Source: a virus
DNA length: 23,857 nt
Virus record (IMG/VR): IMGVR_UViG_3300045119_000194
Coordinates: 1-23,857 of that record
Strand: one strand, 5' to 3'
The translations under genes and the position numbers were made by a program. Below, piece after piece: positions 8,836 through 16,253 of this stretch. Numbering within the stretch: position 1 is the stretch's first letter; each line of letters starts with the position of its first letter. The notes beneath the pieces are model-generated. The model saw only the letters and a program-made list of their open reading frames with translations, made no database searches and was not told the DNA's origin.

Positions 8836-9123
8836 ATGAACTACGAAAGCGCCCTTGATGTTGCTGCCCGTGGCGGCGGAACTGTGGGGCCGCAGAGGAT
8901 TCGCAGAGCCGTGTGGCCGTTCGGTGAGCATGTCGTCTACCAGTCCTCCTCCGGGACGGTAGATGGCTCCGTGTACAGGCCGCACTTCCATAGGGGCTTG
9001 AACCCCAACGGGCCGTATGTGGACTGGTCGCCTTCTGAAGAGGACCGGGCAGCCGAAGACTGGGAGACCATCCGCGTGCAGTACATGCGCCTCGATGGGC
9101 CTCCTGACCGCCCACGCGGGTAG
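8836..9123 (+). CDS. Tad2-like (DUF2829) protein, candidate Thoeris/cyclic-nucleotide sponge
   Basis: The 95-residue product starts at ATG 8836 after AGGG. It follows the DUF2829 pattern: an N-terminal MNYESALDVA helix (family: M.fg.Al..lk.G), an IRRAVWPFG segment (family: v.R..W), a YRPHF strand and the hallmark VDWSPSEEDRAAEDWETI (family: W.pS..DllAeDWe.). Length is typical for the family. Tad2 proteins of other phages bind cyclic ADP-ribose-type signals and so block Thoeris defence. The family also includes proteins of unknown ligand, so anti-defence activity here is inference. It lies among small accessory genes, close to an Acb2-like gene. Confidence 0.75.
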   Translation: MNYESALDVAARGGGTVGPQRIRRAVWPFGEHVVYQSSSGTVDGSVYRPHFHRGLNPNGPYVDWSPSEEDRAAEDWETIRVQYMRLDGPPDRPRG

Positions 9124-9132
9124 CGCTACACT
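9104..9132 (+). promoter_or_regulatory. Candidate promoter for the Acb2-like gene pair
   Basis: CTGACC (9104-9109), 17 bases and TACACT (9127-9132) give a good -35/-10 arrangement with a TANNNT -10. The -35 lies in the end of the Tad2-like gene. The expected start is about 9139, leaving a leader of roughly 44 bases that contains the hairpin at 9142-9158. Confidence 0.5.
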
Positions 9133-9141
9133 CCCGGTAGG

Positions 9142-9158
9142 CCATCCACTGTGGGTGG
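9142..9158 (+). promoter_or_regulatory. Leader stem-loop
   Basis: CCATCCA and TGGGTGG form a 7-bp stem (one G-U) around a three-base loop in the short leader between the candidate promoter and the ribosome site GAAGGAG (9167-9173). It may stabilise the message or modulate translation. Confidence 0.4.
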
Positions 9159-9182
9159 TTCTCCGTGAAGGAGTGTGGCGTG

Positions 9183-9524
9183 ATGCCGAAGGAACAAATC
9201 AACTTCCCAGTGTGGAAGAAAACCGGCCACGGTCTGCCAGGGAGCACCGGGTCAGATGAGGCCGCGACAGCCGAAATCGAAGACGTGTTGCTTGTGCGGT
9301 GGCACGACAACTCGCTGGTTGAGGGCTACGTACAGATGTCGTTGGTGTCTCAGGAACCGATGGCGTGGGCGGACTTTGAAGCGGCGGACGTAGACCCTGG
9401 TTCTGGTCCGGTGGTAAACACGGCGACGGAGCGGTTCACGCCGGTGTTGTCGCGAGATGATCTGAACCGGATGATCAAGGTGCTGCGCCGGGCACGCGAC
9501 TCCGCATACGGTAAGGACGCATAA
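9183..9524 (+). CDS. Conserved-type actinophage hypothetical protein
   Basis: The 113-residue product is read from ATG 9183, nine bases after GAAGGAG; GTG 9180 is an equally possible start three bases upstream. It has a beta-rich first half (VLLVRWHDNSLVEGYVQMSLV) and a helical basic end (LSRDDLNRMIKVLRRARDSAYG). The end resembles small proteins found in Streptomyces phages, but I know no function. Its stop overlaps the start of the Acb2-like gene (TAATG), so the two are translated together. Confidence 0.65.
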   Translation: MPKEQINFPVWKKTGHGLPGSTGSDEAATAEIEDVLLVRWHDNSLVEGYVQMSLVSQEPMAWADFEAADVDPGSGPVVNTATERFTPVLSRDDLNRMIKVLRRARDSAYGKDA

Positions 9525-9904
9525 TGCCTGAGACCACTCCCATCAGCGCCGCTGCCCTCGGTACGGCTGTTGTCACCGCCCAGCCGGTAGGCCAGTTCTC
9601 GTCGAACACCCCAGTCCCGTTGCCGCTGCCCGATGTGCCAGAGCCGGTAGCAGCCTCTGATGTCACCGCCACCACCCCAGACGGGGCCACGGTGCACGAT
9701 GTGGTCTGGACGCCGGAGCCGCCGCCGATCTTGAGGCACTTCGAGTTCGGGCATCTGCCGGAGCACTTGCAGGCCGTCAGCAAGGAGTTCCACGCACTGG
9801 CGCACCTGATGGTGCGGCTGCTGGAGAACGGCCCGGAGCTGTCCGCTTGCCTGCGGAAGTTGCTTGAGGCAAAGGACTGTGCGGTGCGGGCCGCTAGGCC
9901 ATAG
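9524..9904 (+). CDS. Acb2/Tad1-hairpin-like protein, candidate anti-CBASS sponge
   Basis: The 126-residue product begins at ATG 9524, overlapping the previous stop by one base. Residues 1-70 are a disordered Pro/Ala/Thr-rich arm. Residues 71-126 form a helical hairpin whose pattern matches the Acb2/Tad1 hairpin family: R-x-F-x-F-x-HLP, a long helix FHALAHLMVRLLENGPE, then LRKLLEAKDCAVRAAR (family: .F.yhpL......ir..a..la..i....p...E...al..LeeA..wAnaaIA). Acb2 proteins trap cyclic nucleotides made by CBASS. The match is by pattern only, and the long N-terminal arm is unusual. It sits two genes after the Tad2-like gene and just before the tRNA array. Confidence 0.6.
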   Translation: MPETTPISAAALGTAVVTAQPVGQFSSNTPVPLPLPDVPEPVAASDVTATTPDGATVHDVVWTPEPPPILRHFEFGHLPEHLQAVSKEFHALAHLMVRLLENGPELSACLRKLLEAKDCAVRAARP

Positions 9905-9911
9905 CATGCGA

Positions 9912-9978
9912 GGGGTGTCCGGAGAGTGCGAGGTCCGGGCGGCGAGTGTCCGGCCATACCTGACTTCCGGACAGCCCC
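9912..9978 (+). ncRNA. Stem-enclosed RNA element A
   Basis: GGGG-TGTCCGG (9912-9922) pairs with CCGGACA-(G)-CCCC (9967-9978) to give an 11-bp stem with a single bulged base. The 44-base interior repeats GTCCGG. It ends three bases before the first serine tRNA and starts eight bases after the Acb2-like stop. No U-tract follows. It is the first of three elements that alternate with the tRNAs. It does not fold as a tRNA: no T-loop sequence is present. Confidence 0.5.
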
Positions 9979-9981
9979 AGT

Positions 9982-10066
9982 GGAGAGGTGCCAGAGCAGT
10001 AATGGGTCCGGTTGCTAGCCGGAAGCCAGGGTGACACCTGCCGGGGTGCAAATCCTCGTCTCTCCG
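9982..10066 (+). tRNA. tRNA-Ser (anticodon GCT)
   Basis: An 85-base class II tRNA. Acceptor GGAGAGG pairs with TCTCTCC (last pair G-U) and is followed by discriminator G10066. The D stem is CCA/TGG. The anticodon arm is TCCGG-TTGCTAG-CCGGA, giving anticodon GCT for codons AGC and AGU. The long variable arm contains CAGG/CCTG. The T arm CGGGG-TGCAAAT-CCTCG has TGC in place of the usual TTC. Long variable arm plus discriminator G identify serine. No CCA is encoded. Confidence 0.92.
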
Positions 10067-10068
10067 CT

Positions 10069-10121
10069 AGCTCCGCCACGGGATCAAATTCTCAACCGTT
10101 CTGGGAACGCGTGGCGGAGCT
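10069..10121 (+). ncRNA. Stem-enclosed RNA element B
   Basis: AGCTCCGCCACG (10069-10080) and CGTGGCGGAGCT (10110-10121) are a perfect 12-bp inverted repeat around 29 bases, within which GTTC-TGG-GAAC can form a second hairpin. The element starts two bases after one serine tRNA and ends two bases before the next. TTT overlaps its 3' edge, which is too short for a normal terminator tail. A processing signal, attenuator or insulating stem between tRNAs is possible. Confidence 0.55.
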
Positions 10122-10123
10122 TT

Positions 10124-10204
10124 GGTAGGTACGCCAATGGTGGCAAGCGCTCTCGAAAGGCGTGGCGGGTAACACCGTAGCGGGTTCGATTCCTGTACCT
10201 ACCG
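10124..10204 (+). tRNA. tRNA-Ser (anticodon CGA)
   Basis: An 81-base class II tRNA. Acceptor GGTAGGT/ACCTACC is perfect, with discriminator G10204. The D arm is GCC-AATGGT-GGC with a short loop. The anticodon arm GCGCT-CTCGAAA-GGCGT has two G-U pairs and gives anticodon CGA (codon UCG) after U33. The variable arm contains CGG/CCG and the T loop is TTCGATT. Compared with the next tRNA, acceptor and variable-arm differences are compensated, which proves the fold. No CCA is encoded. Confidence 0.9.
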
Positions 10205-10206
10205 CA

Positions 10207-10291
10207 GGGATGTGCGCTACCCAAGTCGGTTCGGGCGCGCTGCAACCAAGGGTACAAGCTGGTGTCGGCGCGCAGTCAGCTCGCACATCCC
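10207..10291 (+). ncRNA. Stem-enclosed RNA element C (multi-stem)
   Basis: GGGATGTGCG (10207-10216) and CGCACATCCC (10282-10291) close an 85-base element with a perfect 10-bp stem. Inside, two alternative folds are possible: a nested helix of GCGCGCTG with CGGCGCGC capped by ACCA/TGGT, or two side hairpins (TACCC/GGGTA and AGCTG/CAGCT) whose loops share self-complementary GCGCGC and could kiss. It lies two bases after one tRNA and three before the next. Its size is tRNA-like but no T-loop or anticodon arm fits on either strand. Confidence 0.5.
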
Positions 10292-10294
10292 AAT

Positions 10295-10377
10295 GGAAGG
10301 TCCGACATGGGTGAGTCAAGCGCCCCGGAAAGGCGTGGCAGGTAACACTGTTGTCGGTTCGAGTCCGGCACCTTCCG
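10295..10377 (+). tRNA. tRNA-Ser (anticodon GGA, lacking U33)
   Basis: An 83-base class II tRNA. Acceptor GGAAGGT/ACCTTCC is perfect and discriminator is G10377. The D stem is GAC/GTC. The anticodon arm GCGCC-CCGGAAA-GGCGT gives GGA (codons UCC, UCU), but position 33 is C instead of the near-universal U. The variable arm CAG/CTG covaries with CGG/CCG of the previous tRNA. The T arm GTCGG-TTCGAGT-CCGGC is normal. It ends exactly where the stop codon of the minus-strand HAD gene begins. It may decode poorly or act as a decoy. Confidence 0.85.
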
Positions 10378-10797
10378 CTAGTGGCCACCGATCCAGTAAT
10401 GGATCTCCAAGATGTGTCTGTATGTGAGACCGACATGCGGGTCCGGCCCGACGATCATGTGGGGTCTCCCTGCCAGCGCCTCTTGCAGCTTCGGGTGGGT
10501 GACCTCGTGGAACATGTCATCTATCCATACCAGCGGCCTCGGGCTGCCCCAGGTGGCCGTGGCTGGCTTGACGTCGATGACGGGGAGTTGCGGCAGCCCT
10601 AGCGCTGGTGAGATCTCCTTGTTCGCTTGGTGTCCCCACGATGTGCTCCACACGAGTTCCACGCCGCGCCAGTGGACAAGCTTCCGCAGCCAGGCGCCGT
10701 GCCGCTGGTTCCATTCCACTGGTCGCCCGAATGGGGCGAGTACCCCATCTACGTCAATGGCTACTATCGGCCGGAGATTGGTAGGTTCCTCATTCAT
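10378..10797 (-). CDS. HAD-superfamily hydrolase-like protein
   Basis: The 139-residue product has the HAD signature in order: motif I IDVDGVL with D15 and D17, motif II WSTSWG at residues 50-55, a lysine in VKPATATW (K77) and motif IV WIDDMFH with D93 and D94. Such small proteins are phosphatases acting on nucleotides, sugars or nucleic-acid ends; the substrate here is not readable. There is no cap domain. It lies antisense to the surrounding late genes, its stop touches the third tRNA, and its ATG lies 24 bases from the divergent MuF gene. A -10 box six bases before ATG and the absence of a ribosome site suggest a leaderless mRNA. Confidence 0.8.
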   Translation of the reverse strand: MNEEPTNLRPIVAIDVDGVLAPFGRPVEWNQRHGAWLRKLVHWRGVELVWSTSWGHQANKEISPALGLPQLPVIDVKPATATWGSPRPLVWIDDMFHEVTHPKLQEALAGRPHMIVGPDPHVGLTYRHILEIHYWIGGH

Positions 10798-10803
10798 GAG
10801 GTG

Positions 10804-10832
10804 ATCCTAGGAGGGGGAACCGTGGTTGTTCA
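10804..10832 (-). promoter_or_regulatory. Candidate leaderless promoter of the HAD gene
   Basis: On the minus strand, TGAACA (10832-10827), 17 bases and TAGGAT (10809-10804) form a promoter with a TANNNT -10. Six bases separate the -10 from ATG 10797, so the message should begin at the start codon, the same geometry as the first gene of the window. The promoter covers the ribosome site and GTG start of the plus-strand MuF gene. Confidence 0.5.
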
Positions 10833-12378
10833 GCTTGGCCGTGTACCCCTTGCCGAGGCGGATGGCGGAGATGGTGGGACGGTTGCTGTTGTGACCGACC
10901 AGCCGGACCATTCGGGTAGTGCGATGTTGGCGTTGTACCCGCCGTTGGAGTTGGCGGGACGGTTGGGGATACCGACCGGGGTGCCGCTGCTGGAGATGCA
11001 CTGCACCCTTGCCTACATAGGCAAGGCCAGCCAAGTGCCCAAGGATGCCCTCACGCGGGCCGCTAAGCGCCTTACGAGCCGTGGGGCTATACGGGCCAGG
11101 ATAGGCGGCCACGCGGTGTTCACAGGAGGTCCTACGGATGTTCTGGTGGCACTGGTCGACTCCGCTGATCTAGAGCTGCTCAGGCGGGACACCCACGACG
11201 CCCTCCGCGCAGAAGGCATCGAACCAAACACAGAACACGGCTACACCGCCCACATCACCATCAGATACCTGGACGAAGGCGAAGACCTGCCGTTCGACCG
11301 CCTCGATGCCGAAGACTTCACCCTCCCAGCCATCTCCGTAGTCCACGGCGACGACAGGGAAGACCTACCGTTCCGCCCACAAGAGACAACCATCGCCCCC
11401 TACGCCCGCACCGCCTACGCCCAAGGGTGGGCAGCGAGCGGCGGACCCATGACAGAGCGCGTCATGGCAGGGTGCACCGCAGCGATCCAGCTGTGCTGCG
11501 AGAACAGCCACCAGCCCGGCATCCTTGAAGTCGCCATCCACCTCGGTCAGCTCGAAGGCATCTGGGCCACCGTGTTCGAACGCCGCTACAAGCTGATGGC
11601 AGATATGGAGACACTCGTCTCCGCCATCTGGCGCATGGCAGTAGCCGAAGCAGATGTTGCAGGCACCGTAGTGATTCTTCGGCAGCAACTCGCCATCGGA
11701 GAAGACAGCCAAGACGAGCAAGACTTCCTGCGTCGCGCTAAAGCCGTAGCCCGCGAGCTAGCCATCCGTATGCTCTCCTGGATACCCTCCACCACTAAGT
11801 GGCAGACAATGCGCGACACCATGCGGAAGTTGGTAGCCTCCGGACGCGCAGAAGGATACGCAGATGCCATAGCCATAGCTGCGGCAGAAGAAGGGAAGAT
11901 CGGTATCAGTTTCGACATCGCTTTCAAAGACGCCTACACCGCCATGGAGAACCTCGGCGAGACCTGGGCAGAGAGCGACATCTGGCTGAACCGCATGCTG
12001 GGCCGCGCCGCAGACCAGTTCGGCCGCACCCTGGGTGAGCTGTCCGCAGCAGGCGCCAGCTACCAAGAGATGATCGACGCCGGTATCGACATCCTTGATC
12101 TCACCGCAGAAGACGCCGACGCCGTAGCGTTCACCGTCGACTGGGCCCTCTCCGCCGGGTTCTCCCGTGGCGCACTGGACCTGTACCGGTCAGAGAACGT
12201 CGAGTACGTGACATGGATGACAGCCGGTGACGGCCGCGTGTGCGTCACGTGCGAGCAGCACGGCATCGACTCGCCGTTCCTCATCACCGACTTCCCCGAC
12301 ATGCCAGCGCACCCTCGGTGCCGGTGTGTCGCCACAGCAGAGTTCTCGATCAGCCCGGCCTACGACGGCTACTTCTAG
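10822..12378 (+). CDS. 2H-phosphoesterase domain fused to MuF-like minor head protein
   Basis: The 518-residue product starts at GTG 10822, seven bases after AGGAGG; longer upstream reading would run into the HAD gene. Residues about 30-200 carry two HxT motifs, HCTLAYIG (H60, T62) and HITIRYL (H144, T146), the paired histidines of the 2H phosphoesterase (2'-5' RNA ligase-like) superfamily. After a helical middle, residues about 400-518 match the MuF head-morphogenesis domain, with VCVTCEQHG near 473-481 and the AHPRCRC signature at 496-502. MuF proteins sit at the portal and can be injected. The enzyme domain could process RNA ends or degrade cyclic nucleotides as Acb1 (also a 2H enzyme) does; this is inference. 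Confidence 0.85.
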   Translation: MVVQLGRVPLAEADGGDGGTVAVVTDQPDHSGSAMLALYPPLELAGRLGIPTGVPLLEMHCTLAYIGKASQVPKDALTRAAKRLTSRGAIRARIGGHAVFTGGPTDVLVALVDSADLELLRRDTHDALRAEGIEPNTEHGYTAHITIRYLDEGEDLPFDRLDAEDFTLPAISVVHGDDREDLPFRPQETTIAPYARTAYAQGWAASGGPMTERVMAGCTAAIQLCCENSHQPGILEVAIHLGQLEGIWATVFERRYKLMADMETLVSAIWRMAVAEADVAGTVVILRQQLAIGEDSQDEQDFLRRAKAVARELAIRMLSWIPSTTKWQTMRDTMRKLVASGRAEGYADAIAIAAAEEGKIGISFDIAFKDAYTAMENLGETWAESDIWLNRMLGRAADQFGRTLGELSAAGASYQEMIDAGIDILDLTAEDADAVAFTVDWALSAGFSRGALDLYRSENVEYVTWMTAGDGRVCVTCEQHGIDSPFLITDFPDMPAHPRCRCVATAEFSISPAYDGYF

Positions 12379-14268: not shown

Positions 14269-15642
14269 ATGCCTAACATGACCCTCCTCCAGGAGGCCGT
14301 GACCACTGCGGGTACCGTTACCCCGCTTATCCCGAAGGCGATTGACCCCGTCCTTCTTGAGTACCAGCGCCGGTACTCCCCTCTGCTCGCCGCTATCCCG
14401 ACGAAGCAGTGGAACTCGACGCAGTACTTCTTCAACCGTCGCGTGAACCGCCCCGACTCGGGTGCCGTCATCGACGGTGGCGCCCGGCCGATCAGCAACT
14501 CGACGTACGAGCAGTCCGTCTACAACATCCGCCTGTTCCAGGCGGTTGGCTCTGTCACTGGCTTCGCCCAGACGGTTACCCGCGACATCGTCGGTGACCT
14601 GCGGCAGATCGAACTCGACGGCACCGTCCAGTCGATGCTGTGGACCGTGGAGAACAGCTTCATCTGGGGTAACGACCCGGCCACCACGAACGGCGTACAG
14701 CCGATGTGCTCCGGCCTGGACTACCTGGTGTCGAACTGGACTGCCGGTACCGGCTCCAACGCGTTCGTCAACGCACAGGACGTGAACGGCTCCCTGACGT
14801 TGGCGAAGCTCGACGAGCTGATCGACCTGGTCGAAACCAACGCGGCCATGCCGATCGACGGCATGCCGTGGATGTTCGTCATGTCTGGCCGGATGGTCTC
14901 GGCTGTCAGCCAGCTGTTCGTGAACCAGCAGCGGTTCGCGGCACCTACCACTCACCTCGGTGGTGGTTTGAACGTGCCGTCGTACCGTGACGTTCCGATG
15001 GTCAAGTCGAGCTTCCTGTCGCCGCGTACCTTCGGTATGGGTACCGTCGCCACCTCCACCTCCGCCACCGGCGGTACTCTCGCTGCGGCGACGTACTACT
15101 ACCAGGTGTCTGCGGTTGTGGCCCGGTTCGGTGAGATCGCAGCATCGACTGAGGTTTCGCAGACCACCTCCGGCGCTACCTCGACAGCGACCCTGACGTT
15201 CTCCACCCCTACGGGTCTCCCGGACAACGCGGGCGTCATCCTGTACAAGGTGTACCGCTCGACCGGCACCGGCACCGAGACTCTCCTGGGTGTTGTTGAC
15301 GCGTTCGACACCACTGGTGTCGCCACCACCACCATCGTCGACACCGGTTCGAACCTGCTCACCAACAGCTCCGGCAACACCGGTACCACCGCGTACGTTG
15401 GTACCAACACCGGTGCGAAGCCGAAGGCTGCGGGTGGCAACGCCTACGAGGACATCTACCTCATCAGCCGTGACCCGAACTTCGTGGTGCGGCCGTACAC
15501 CCGGAACATGCAGATCCTGCCGCTGGCCCCTACGGTCACCGCGCCTGACACTCTGCCGTTCGCGGTTCTGACGGACACCACGCTCGCGTTGCGGGCGCCG
15601 AAGTACGCCGGGCGTTTGAGCCGGGTAGTCGCGGCGATCTAG
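14269..15642 (+). CDS. Major capsid protein with inserted Ig/Fn3-like domain
   Basis: The 457-residue product starts at ATG 14269 after AAGGAA. The N-terminal arm and residues up to about 260 follow the HK97-type capsid layout (PIPKAID start region, DGGARPISNSTYEQ, long spine helix LDGTVQSMLWTVENSFIWG, then MPWMFVMSGRM). Residues about 262-380 are a Thr/Ser/Val-rich beta domain (ATYYYQVSAVV, ILYKVYRSTGTGTETLLGVV) typical of an Ig/Fn3 surface insertion. The last 80 residues return to the capsid core (DIYLISRDPNFVV, LPFAVLTDTTLALRAP). It builds the icosahedral shell. A terminator lies downstream, consistent with high expression. Confidence 0.9.
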   Translation: MPNMTLLQEAVTTAGTVTPLIPKAIDPVLLEYQRRYSPLLAAIPTKQWNSTQYFFNRRVNRPDSGAVIDGGARPISNSTYEQSVYNIRLFQAVGSVTGFAQTVTRDIVGDLRQIELDGTVQSMLWTVENSFIWGNDPATTNGVQPMCSGLDYLVSNWTAGTGSNAFVNAQDVNGSLTLAKLDELIDLVETNAAMPIDGMPWMFVMSGRMVSAVSQLFVNQQRFAAPTTHLGGGLNVPSYRDVPMVKSSFLSPRTFGMGTVATSTSATGGTLAAATYYYQVSAVVARFGEIAASTEVSQTTSGATSTATLTFSTPTGLPDNAGVILYKVYRSTGTGTETLLGVVDAFDTTGVATTTIVDTGSNLLTNSSGNTGTTAYVGTNTGAKPKAAGGNAYEDIYLISRDPNFVVRPYTRNMQILPLAPTVTAPDTLPFAVLTDTTLALRAPKYAGRLSRVVAAI

Positions 15643-15709
15643 CATGGCTGTGAGGGCGTTGCGCGTCGCCTGCGCCGTTTCGGCGGCTAAGGGTCTTTGA
15701 CTCCGCGCA

Positions 15710-15744
15710 GAGCCCCCGGTGCAAGCCGGGGGCTCTTTTGGTTT
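15710..15744 (+). terminator. Strong intrinsic terminator after the capsid gene
   Basis: GAGCCCCCGG (15710-15719) and CCGGGGGCTC (15726-15735) form a perfect 10-bp stem with loop TGCAAG, followed by TTTTGGTTT. It stops plus-strand transcription after the major capsid gene and so protects the opposing minus-strand cassette. The minus direction has no U-tract, so it is one-way. A smaller GCCG-TTT-CGGC hairpin lies just upstream. Confidence 0.92.
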
Positions 15745-16051: not shown

Positions 16052-16253
16052 GCGGGGGGAAGCTGTAGTCGGGCTCTCCGGGGTGCCACGAGTCCATGCC
16101 CGGGTACAGGGCGCTCTCTGACAGCAACGGCGGCCACTCGTTGGACTTCTTCGGCGGCTGCGGGACCGGGTCCGGCTGGGGGCTGTACGGGCCGGGCTTC
16201 TCGGTGGGCTGGAGCGGCCCGGGGGAGGGGTGTGCTGCGGTGGGGGTGTTCAT
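16044..16253 (-). CDS. Proline-rich small protein
   Basis: ATG 16253 lies eight bases after AAGGAG and overlaps the upstream stop as ATGA. The 69-residue product is very rich in proline and serine (HPSPGPLQPTEKPGPYSPQ region) and ends with a Trp/Tyr-containing tail (MDSWHPGEPDYSFPPRG). It is probably unstructured and may mediate binding. It has no similarity I recognise. Confidence 0.55.
   Translation of the reverse strand: MNTPTAAHPSPGPLQPTEKPGPYSPQPDPVPQPPKKSNEWPPLLSESALYPGMDSWHPGEPDYSFPPRG

Follow-up and report, generated by a model that had tools for sequence, protein, structure and literature searches.

The serine tRNA array and its closed spacers

The window, by which we mean the whole stretch of DNA analysed (23,857 nt), is a 23.9-kb virus record that carries terminase, portal, minor head protein and major capsid genes (PHROG profiles), and it derives from an actinobacterial-type phage. 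Three tRNA-Ser genes alternate in it with three spacers, designated E1, E2 and E3 (Table 1). The HAD_SAK_2 gene beyond the array is convergent with it and had no relatives among the viral contigs searched. The product of the fused gene that follows also matched Acb1 in the Pfam scan, below the cut-off. The Tad2-like gene and another small gene upstream of the array are shared with the related contig L117. A search for sigma-70-like promoters around the array gave none. Taken together, the Tad2-like, RNA-repair HAD and 2H-phosphoesterase neighbours suggest a counter-defence setting.

Table 1. Features of the tRNA array, its neighbours and the region downstream of the capsid gene.
Feature	Position	Strand	Basis and remarks
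Tad2-like (Thoeris anti-defence) protein, upstream of array	8836..9123	+	Pfam PF11195, E 1.8e-8
ORF, function unassigned	9524..9904	+	PHROG 1761, E 5.7e-26; stops 7 bases before E1
E1, stem-closed, 5' of tRNA1	9912..9978	+	Stem GGGGTGTCCGGA / TCCGGACAGCCCC; fold z -3.2; closure p 0.0017
tRNA-Ser (GCT), tRNA1	9982..10067	+	ARAGORN; Rfam RF00005, 42.6 bits
E2, stem-closed, conserved in relatives	10069..10121	+	Fold z -4.8; closure p 0.00025
tRNA-Ser (CGA), tRNA2	10124..10205	+	ARAGORN
E3, stem-closed	10207..10291	+	Fold z -1.7; closure p 0.0005
tRNA-Ser (GGA), tRNA3	10295..10378	+	ARAGORN
HAD_SAK_2, HAD domain as in RNA-repair proteins	10378..10797	-	Pfam PF18143, E 2e-9
2'-5' RNA ligase/LigT-type phosphoesterase (2H) domain and minor head protein, fused	10822..12378	+	Pfam PF13563, E 2.5e-9; PHROG 115
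Major head protein gene	14269..15642	+	PHROG 752, E 6.9e-30; PK2 lies downstream
PK2 RNA, H-type pseudoknot, two inner hairpins	15655..15709	+	Model R1 match; covariation
Terminator-like hairpin	15710..15739	+	Sequence GAGCCCCCGG-TGCAAG-CCGGGGGCTC, then TTTT; directly 3' of PK2

All three tRNAs show a cloverleaf, a serine anticodon and a long variable arm (ARAGORN), and in a permissive Rfam scan tRNA2 and tRNA3 matched the tRNA clan as class II molecules, through the tRNA-Sec model and under the cut-off of that family. The three commonest serine codons of the phage, UCC, UCG and AGC, correspond to the three anticodons of the array (in 13 ORFs of the window TCC 81, TCG 68 and AGC 62 vs. TCT 34, TCA 14 and AGT 14), and the tRNAs therefore look useful to the phage. 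The loops of tRNA1 are nonstandard (D loop GCAGTAA, T loop TGCAAAT). The G18-U55 contact is seemingly altered on both sides, and in the relatives L002 and L004 the letters are the standard ones; with its D/T-loop contacts altered, tRNA1 could be a degenerate gene.

The ends of each spacer are joined by a long stem. In E1, positions 9912-9923 pair with 9966-9978 (12-13 pairs with one irregularity); in E2, AGCTCCGCCACG (10069-10080) and CGTGGCGGAGCT (10110-10121) form 12 perfect pairs; and in E3, GGGATGTGCG (10207-10216) and CGCACATCCC (10282-10291) form 10. The closing stems enclose 29-65 nt. Inside E3 there is also a GCGCGCTG/CGGCGCGC hairpin, and a loop pseudoknot TACCC/GGGTA is possible. When the end-closing helix of every spacer was compared with those of 4000 dinucleotide-preserving shuffles, all three closures exceeded chance (Table 1), bearing out the preliminary description, in which each tRNA is preceded by an element closed by a long stem. 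The stems had also been described as alike in placement and not in sequence, and indeed the three elements are no copies of one another while the stems of all three abut tRNAs. Junctions of 2-3 bases had been claimed throughout. With the discriminator base taken as the tRNA 3' end, this holds for four of them (tRNA1-E2, E2-tRNA2 and tRNA2-E3, 2 bases each; E3-tRNA3, 3 bases), but the E1-tRNA1 junction measures 3-4 bases. The same closure test failed on the tRNA spacers of the control phages FlowerPower, Alone3, Muntaha and Mimi, which apart from a few borderline cases are short or unclosed.

Conserved RNAs in the array and downstream of the capsid gene

Portal searches gave six virus contigs in total; L002 and L004 show high portal identity, and L117 is a more distant relative (portal 75%). 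The array of L002 contains tRNA-Ser genes with the anticodons GCT, TGA and GGA according to ARAGORN, which missed an additional CGA gene that we read from the sequence (~10473 to 10560). L004 has a tRNA-Ser (GCT) and the beginning of another tRNA-Ser at the contig end, and L117 carries at the corresponding place tRNA-Ala, tRNA-Pro and three more tRNAs.

Homologues of E2 were found in L002 (10422-10468) and L004 (8414-8459), each flanked by two tRNA-Ser genes. In the resulting three-sequence family (model R2), all ten inner closing pairs are kept (30/30 cells, 100%) and five are changed on both sides, whereas shifting the partner by 1-3 bases lowers the pairing to 33-57%; as in the other two families described below (3-7 sequences in each), the stems were picked by eye before counting. 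The loop letters, CTGGGAA and others, are also conserved across the homologues. We conclude that E2 is a conserved RNA, the closing helix of which is kept by compensatory change. Weak similarity was seen between E1 and both L127 1-52 and the Ala-Pro spacer of L117. No E3 homologue was found by a DNA search of the phage database, and its alignment with the other spacers was unconvincing. Covariation support is absent for E1 and E3. Conservation of the stems in relatives, the check proposed earlier, thus holds for E2, has weak counterparts for E1 and was not seen for E3.

A different RNA of ~120 nt lies between tRNAs in L002 (10219-10337), L117 (15891-16010) and L127 (128-246), and its 3' half only is present in L004 (8272-8325). 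Its fold comprises seven helices, which make up two H-type pseudoknots and three hairpins; 96.1% of the cells are paired over 36 pairs, and nine pairs are changed on both sides. No shuffle matched its covariation score. In 4/4 copies the second pseudoknot ends, with its 3' arm, 2-3 bases (AT or ATT) before the next tRNA. The flanking tRNAs vary (Ser/Ser, Ser/unassigned and Pro/Ser), indicating that the module is not bound to one tRNA. The idea of a defined architecture is strengthened by these structured RNAs in equivalent slots of relatives and by the compensatory changes of E2 in two of them. What recurs regularly is the slot, however, and not a single repeated unit of element plus tRNA, as different RNA families fill the slots.

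Some further features of the relatives' arrays were observed. The leader before the first tRNA forms two hairpins with apparent covariation when L004 8100-8197 is compared with L002 9376-9478 (GTGGG/CCCAC vs. GCGGG/CCCGC, and CACGGCGC/GCGCCGTG vs. CACCGGGG/CCCCGGTG). The L117 spacer at 16085-16180 has a possible long pseudoknot, in which GGAGCAC/GTGCTCC is interleaved with GCCTGGTTTG/CAAACCAGGC. Odd tRNAs occur in L117 (15784-15889 and 16011-16084) and L118 (6962-7033); one is a tRNA-Ser in which ~20 nt replace the 7-nt anticodon loop, and others have a 6-nt anticodon loop according to ARAGORN.

The second half of the ~120-nt RNA, here called PK2 (~55 nt), shows strong covariation and recurs in the window outside the array, between the capsid stop codon (15642) and a terminator-like hairpin. 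An RNA that fills tRNA slots in the relatives is thus found downstream of the capsid gene in the window. Its layout there is GGCG[TTGCGCG]TCGCC...CGCGCA, with the helices S1 (GGCG/CGCC) and S2 (TGCGCG/CGCGCA) and the hairpins GCCG/CGGC and GGGTC/GACTC. Pattern scans found PK2 also in three other phage contigs, L205, L211 and L215, in the same order of ORF stop, PK2 and terminator-like hairpin. Across six sequences 96.5% of the cells are paired and six pairs are changed on both sides, vs. 30-51% pairing in the slid controls; the non-stem positions are conserved in sequence too. S1, S2, the inner hairpin and a 3' hairpin containing a G-U pair, which characterize the family, were all found (model R3). 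This G-U pair is kept in 6/6 sequences, indicating that the + strand is the RNA strand. The strongest evidence free of by-eye bias comes from models built without the sequences they then matched. Model R1, a covariance model of the ~120-nt RNA built without the window, matches it at 15619-15711, where PK2 lies, with 36 bits (E 1.2e-7 in 407 kb), and model R3, built without L211/L215, scores these at 55.6 bits (E=3.4e-9). Therefore, we conclude that PK2 is a conserved RNA. Seven virus records, one of them of 103 kb, contain one strong match each, which occupies a slot between tRNAs or lies ahead of a terminator. A search of 61 genomes from a single actinobacterial family gave no PK2, a weak negative given that few candidates were scored.

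Known RNA families and the proposed processing of the array

With curated cut-offs, Rfam gave nothing in the window and only tRNAs in the relatives scanned. Permissive scans of the array, the PK2 region and L117 15480-16280 returned no convincing family besides tRNA, and YrlA (RF02553) matched in none of the three. A sub-threshold match of PK2 to BjrC68 takes in the terminator hairpin and was disregarded. GOLLD and ROOL, which gave no match when the window and relatives were scanned at the gathering cut-offs, are structured, pseudoknotted phage and prophage RNAs of unassigned function often located near tRNA islands, and the GOLLD linker sometimes contains tRNAs (PMC12286853). They are hundreds of bases long, whereas the elements described here are of 50-120 nt and occupy slots between tRNAs. 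Bacterial Y RNAs (YrlA) are similar in their end-to-end stem, tRNA mimicry and location near phage tRNAs, but E1-E3 and PK2 lack a match to RF02553 and no TROVE domain was found in the ten window proteins scanned. No published report of these elements was found in the open-access literature searched. E2 and PK2 are new small RNA families, unmatched in Rfam, in a known kind of place.

In the tRNA cluster of phage T4, stable non-tRNA RNAs (species 1 and 2) are released from the tRNA precursor. In mitochondrial transcripts, and in engineered tRNA-flanked guide RNAs, the processing of tRNAs defines the ends of the RNAs between them. T4 belongs to a different phage group from the window. For the array such tRNA punctuation is proposed here from its anatomy. 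With slightly better than even confidence, we suggest that the array is a single transcription unit in which tRNA-Ser genes alternate with small structured non-coding RNAs and the tRNAs punctuate the precursor. RNase P would cut the 5' end of each tRNA, and a 3'-processing activity (RNase Z or endo/exonuclease trimming) would cut the 3' end. As the closing stems lie only 2-4 bases from the cut sites, each tRNA-maturing cut would also free an element with paired ends, which should confer exonuclease resistance. In this way one transcript would yield, besides the three tRNAs, two or three small RNAs with paired ends. Co-transcription, the cleavage positions, the stability of the elements and their action in trans are what we infer from the sequence and its conservation. 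At least E2 and the PK2 RNA probably act after release; with roughly one copy in each record, placed either between tRNAs or ahead of a terminator, PK2 fits a diffusible trans-acting RNA that needs only to be released better than it fits a processing signal.

The annotation of phage tRNA arrays usually records the tRNAs only and ignores the spacers. Here the spacers are closed RNAs, conserved in part, and at least part of this DNA looks like non-coding RNA rather than filler. Should such freed RNAs exist, a tRNA array would serve as a cassette for the expression of small phage RNAs, and with E2 and PK2 there would be two definite new families whose ends and partners can be tested.

A possible explanation, although one that we consider doubtful, is that the elements are cis-acting processing or insulating hairpins, which prevent co-misfolding of the tRNA-Ser precursors or admit RNase III or other nucleases, the excised pieces being functionless. 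A constant stem position with variable stem sequence would fit this, nearly perfect stems of 10-13 pairs could plausibly be cut by nucleases, and mutual misfolding is possible for tRNA2 and tRNA3, which share 81% identity in the final 62 bases. However, the conserved letters extend into the interior of E2 and the non-stem positions of PK2, and the PK2 copies before terminators lie outside arrays, where there is no tRNA to process or insulate.

That the elements are remnants of decayed tRNA genes or functionless chance palindromes is improbable for the set as a whole. Phage tRNA arrays do contain decaying genes, the relatives carry odd tRNAs, and the 3' hairpin of PK2 (GGTTC...GAATC) resembles a split T arm, but the compensatory changes in E2 and PK2, the closure statistics and the independent match of PK2 are not expected of decaying sequence. 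For E1 and E3 alone, such an origin is possible.

Even less probable are self-cleaving ribozymes, HDV-like ('theta') or of another class, that trim the 3' trailers of the tRNAs. Theta ribozymes are small structured RNAs that abut gut-phage tRNAs and have been proposed to act in tRNA 3' processing (PMC10879173). The niche is the same and PK2 is pseudoknotted, but E1-E3 lie against the 5' end of a following tRNA too, show no HDV-like double pseudoknot and have their two ends paired with each other, which differs from the P1/P2 arrangement of HDV. A permissive HDV-like descriptor gave no match at any tRNA 3' end in the window, L002, L004, L117, L127 or L007, and the Rfam ribozyme families were unmatched in the array and in L117 15480-16280. 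In the region L122 of the 103-kb relative the descriptor gave two weak matches, one of which recurred in a shuffle. The least credible explanation is that the elements terminate or attenuate transcription within the array: the hairpins are GC-rich, but their closing stems enclose 29-65 nt and lead within 2-4 bases into a tRNA, with no U run, and a terminator scan of the + strand (9000-10900) gave none.

The proposed release of small RNAs by tRNA processing can be extended, rather speculatively, to a group of small RNAs, E2 and PK2 among them, that are pseudoknotted or closed by a stem, resemble tRNAs in part and would act in trans, perhaps as counter-defence decoys or substrates alongside the HAD, 2H-phosphoesterase and Tad2-like proteins. 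Under this extension PK2 could shift from a tRNA slot to a capsid-operon terminator or back, since its release would matter and its position would not. The neighbourhood is compatible with counter-defence, and nothing ties the E1-E3 or PK2 RNAs to it.

Spacers and tRNA-like genes in other phages

An independent case was found in Arthrobacter phage Zucker, where a 66-nt stem-closed element lies between two tRNA-Ser genes (closure p 0.0085). A stem-closed region past the last tRNA of Zucker is conserved in AbbyDaisy and Bauer and more weakly in Anekin. In the large array of the 103-kb relative, significant closure right after a tRNA was seen in only 3/16 spacers, indicating that the closure pattern is not general, and with 1/10 in Mimi the universal closure of spacers in large actinophage arrays is unsupported. 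The array region of the 103-kb relative (L122; G001 67500-75500) has 26 tRNA matches and weak YrlA (Y RNA) matches; near the latter, an ORF at L122 2-934 (-) gave a sub-threshold TROVE match.

In DNA searches of the phage database, the array of the window matched mostly tRNA-Ser genes of Streptomyces and Arthrobacter phages, and the ORF upstream of it was matched in Gordonia phages. A search with the short pattern AGTCCTGGGAAACC gave matches mostly in apparently unrelated contigs. Beside the terminase relatives in Streptomyces, Kitasatospora and Catenulispora genomes a single tight tRNA array was found, L136, with gaps of 0-10 bases except one of ~95 bases. Finally, Arthrobacter phages carry tRNA-like genes seemingly without a D arm (L233 1466-1524, L234 ~1234-1294 and L235 ~1297-1372), which have the acceptor GGGCTG/CAGCCC or CGGCCC and a standard T arm and adjoin a conserved stem-closed non-coding region.
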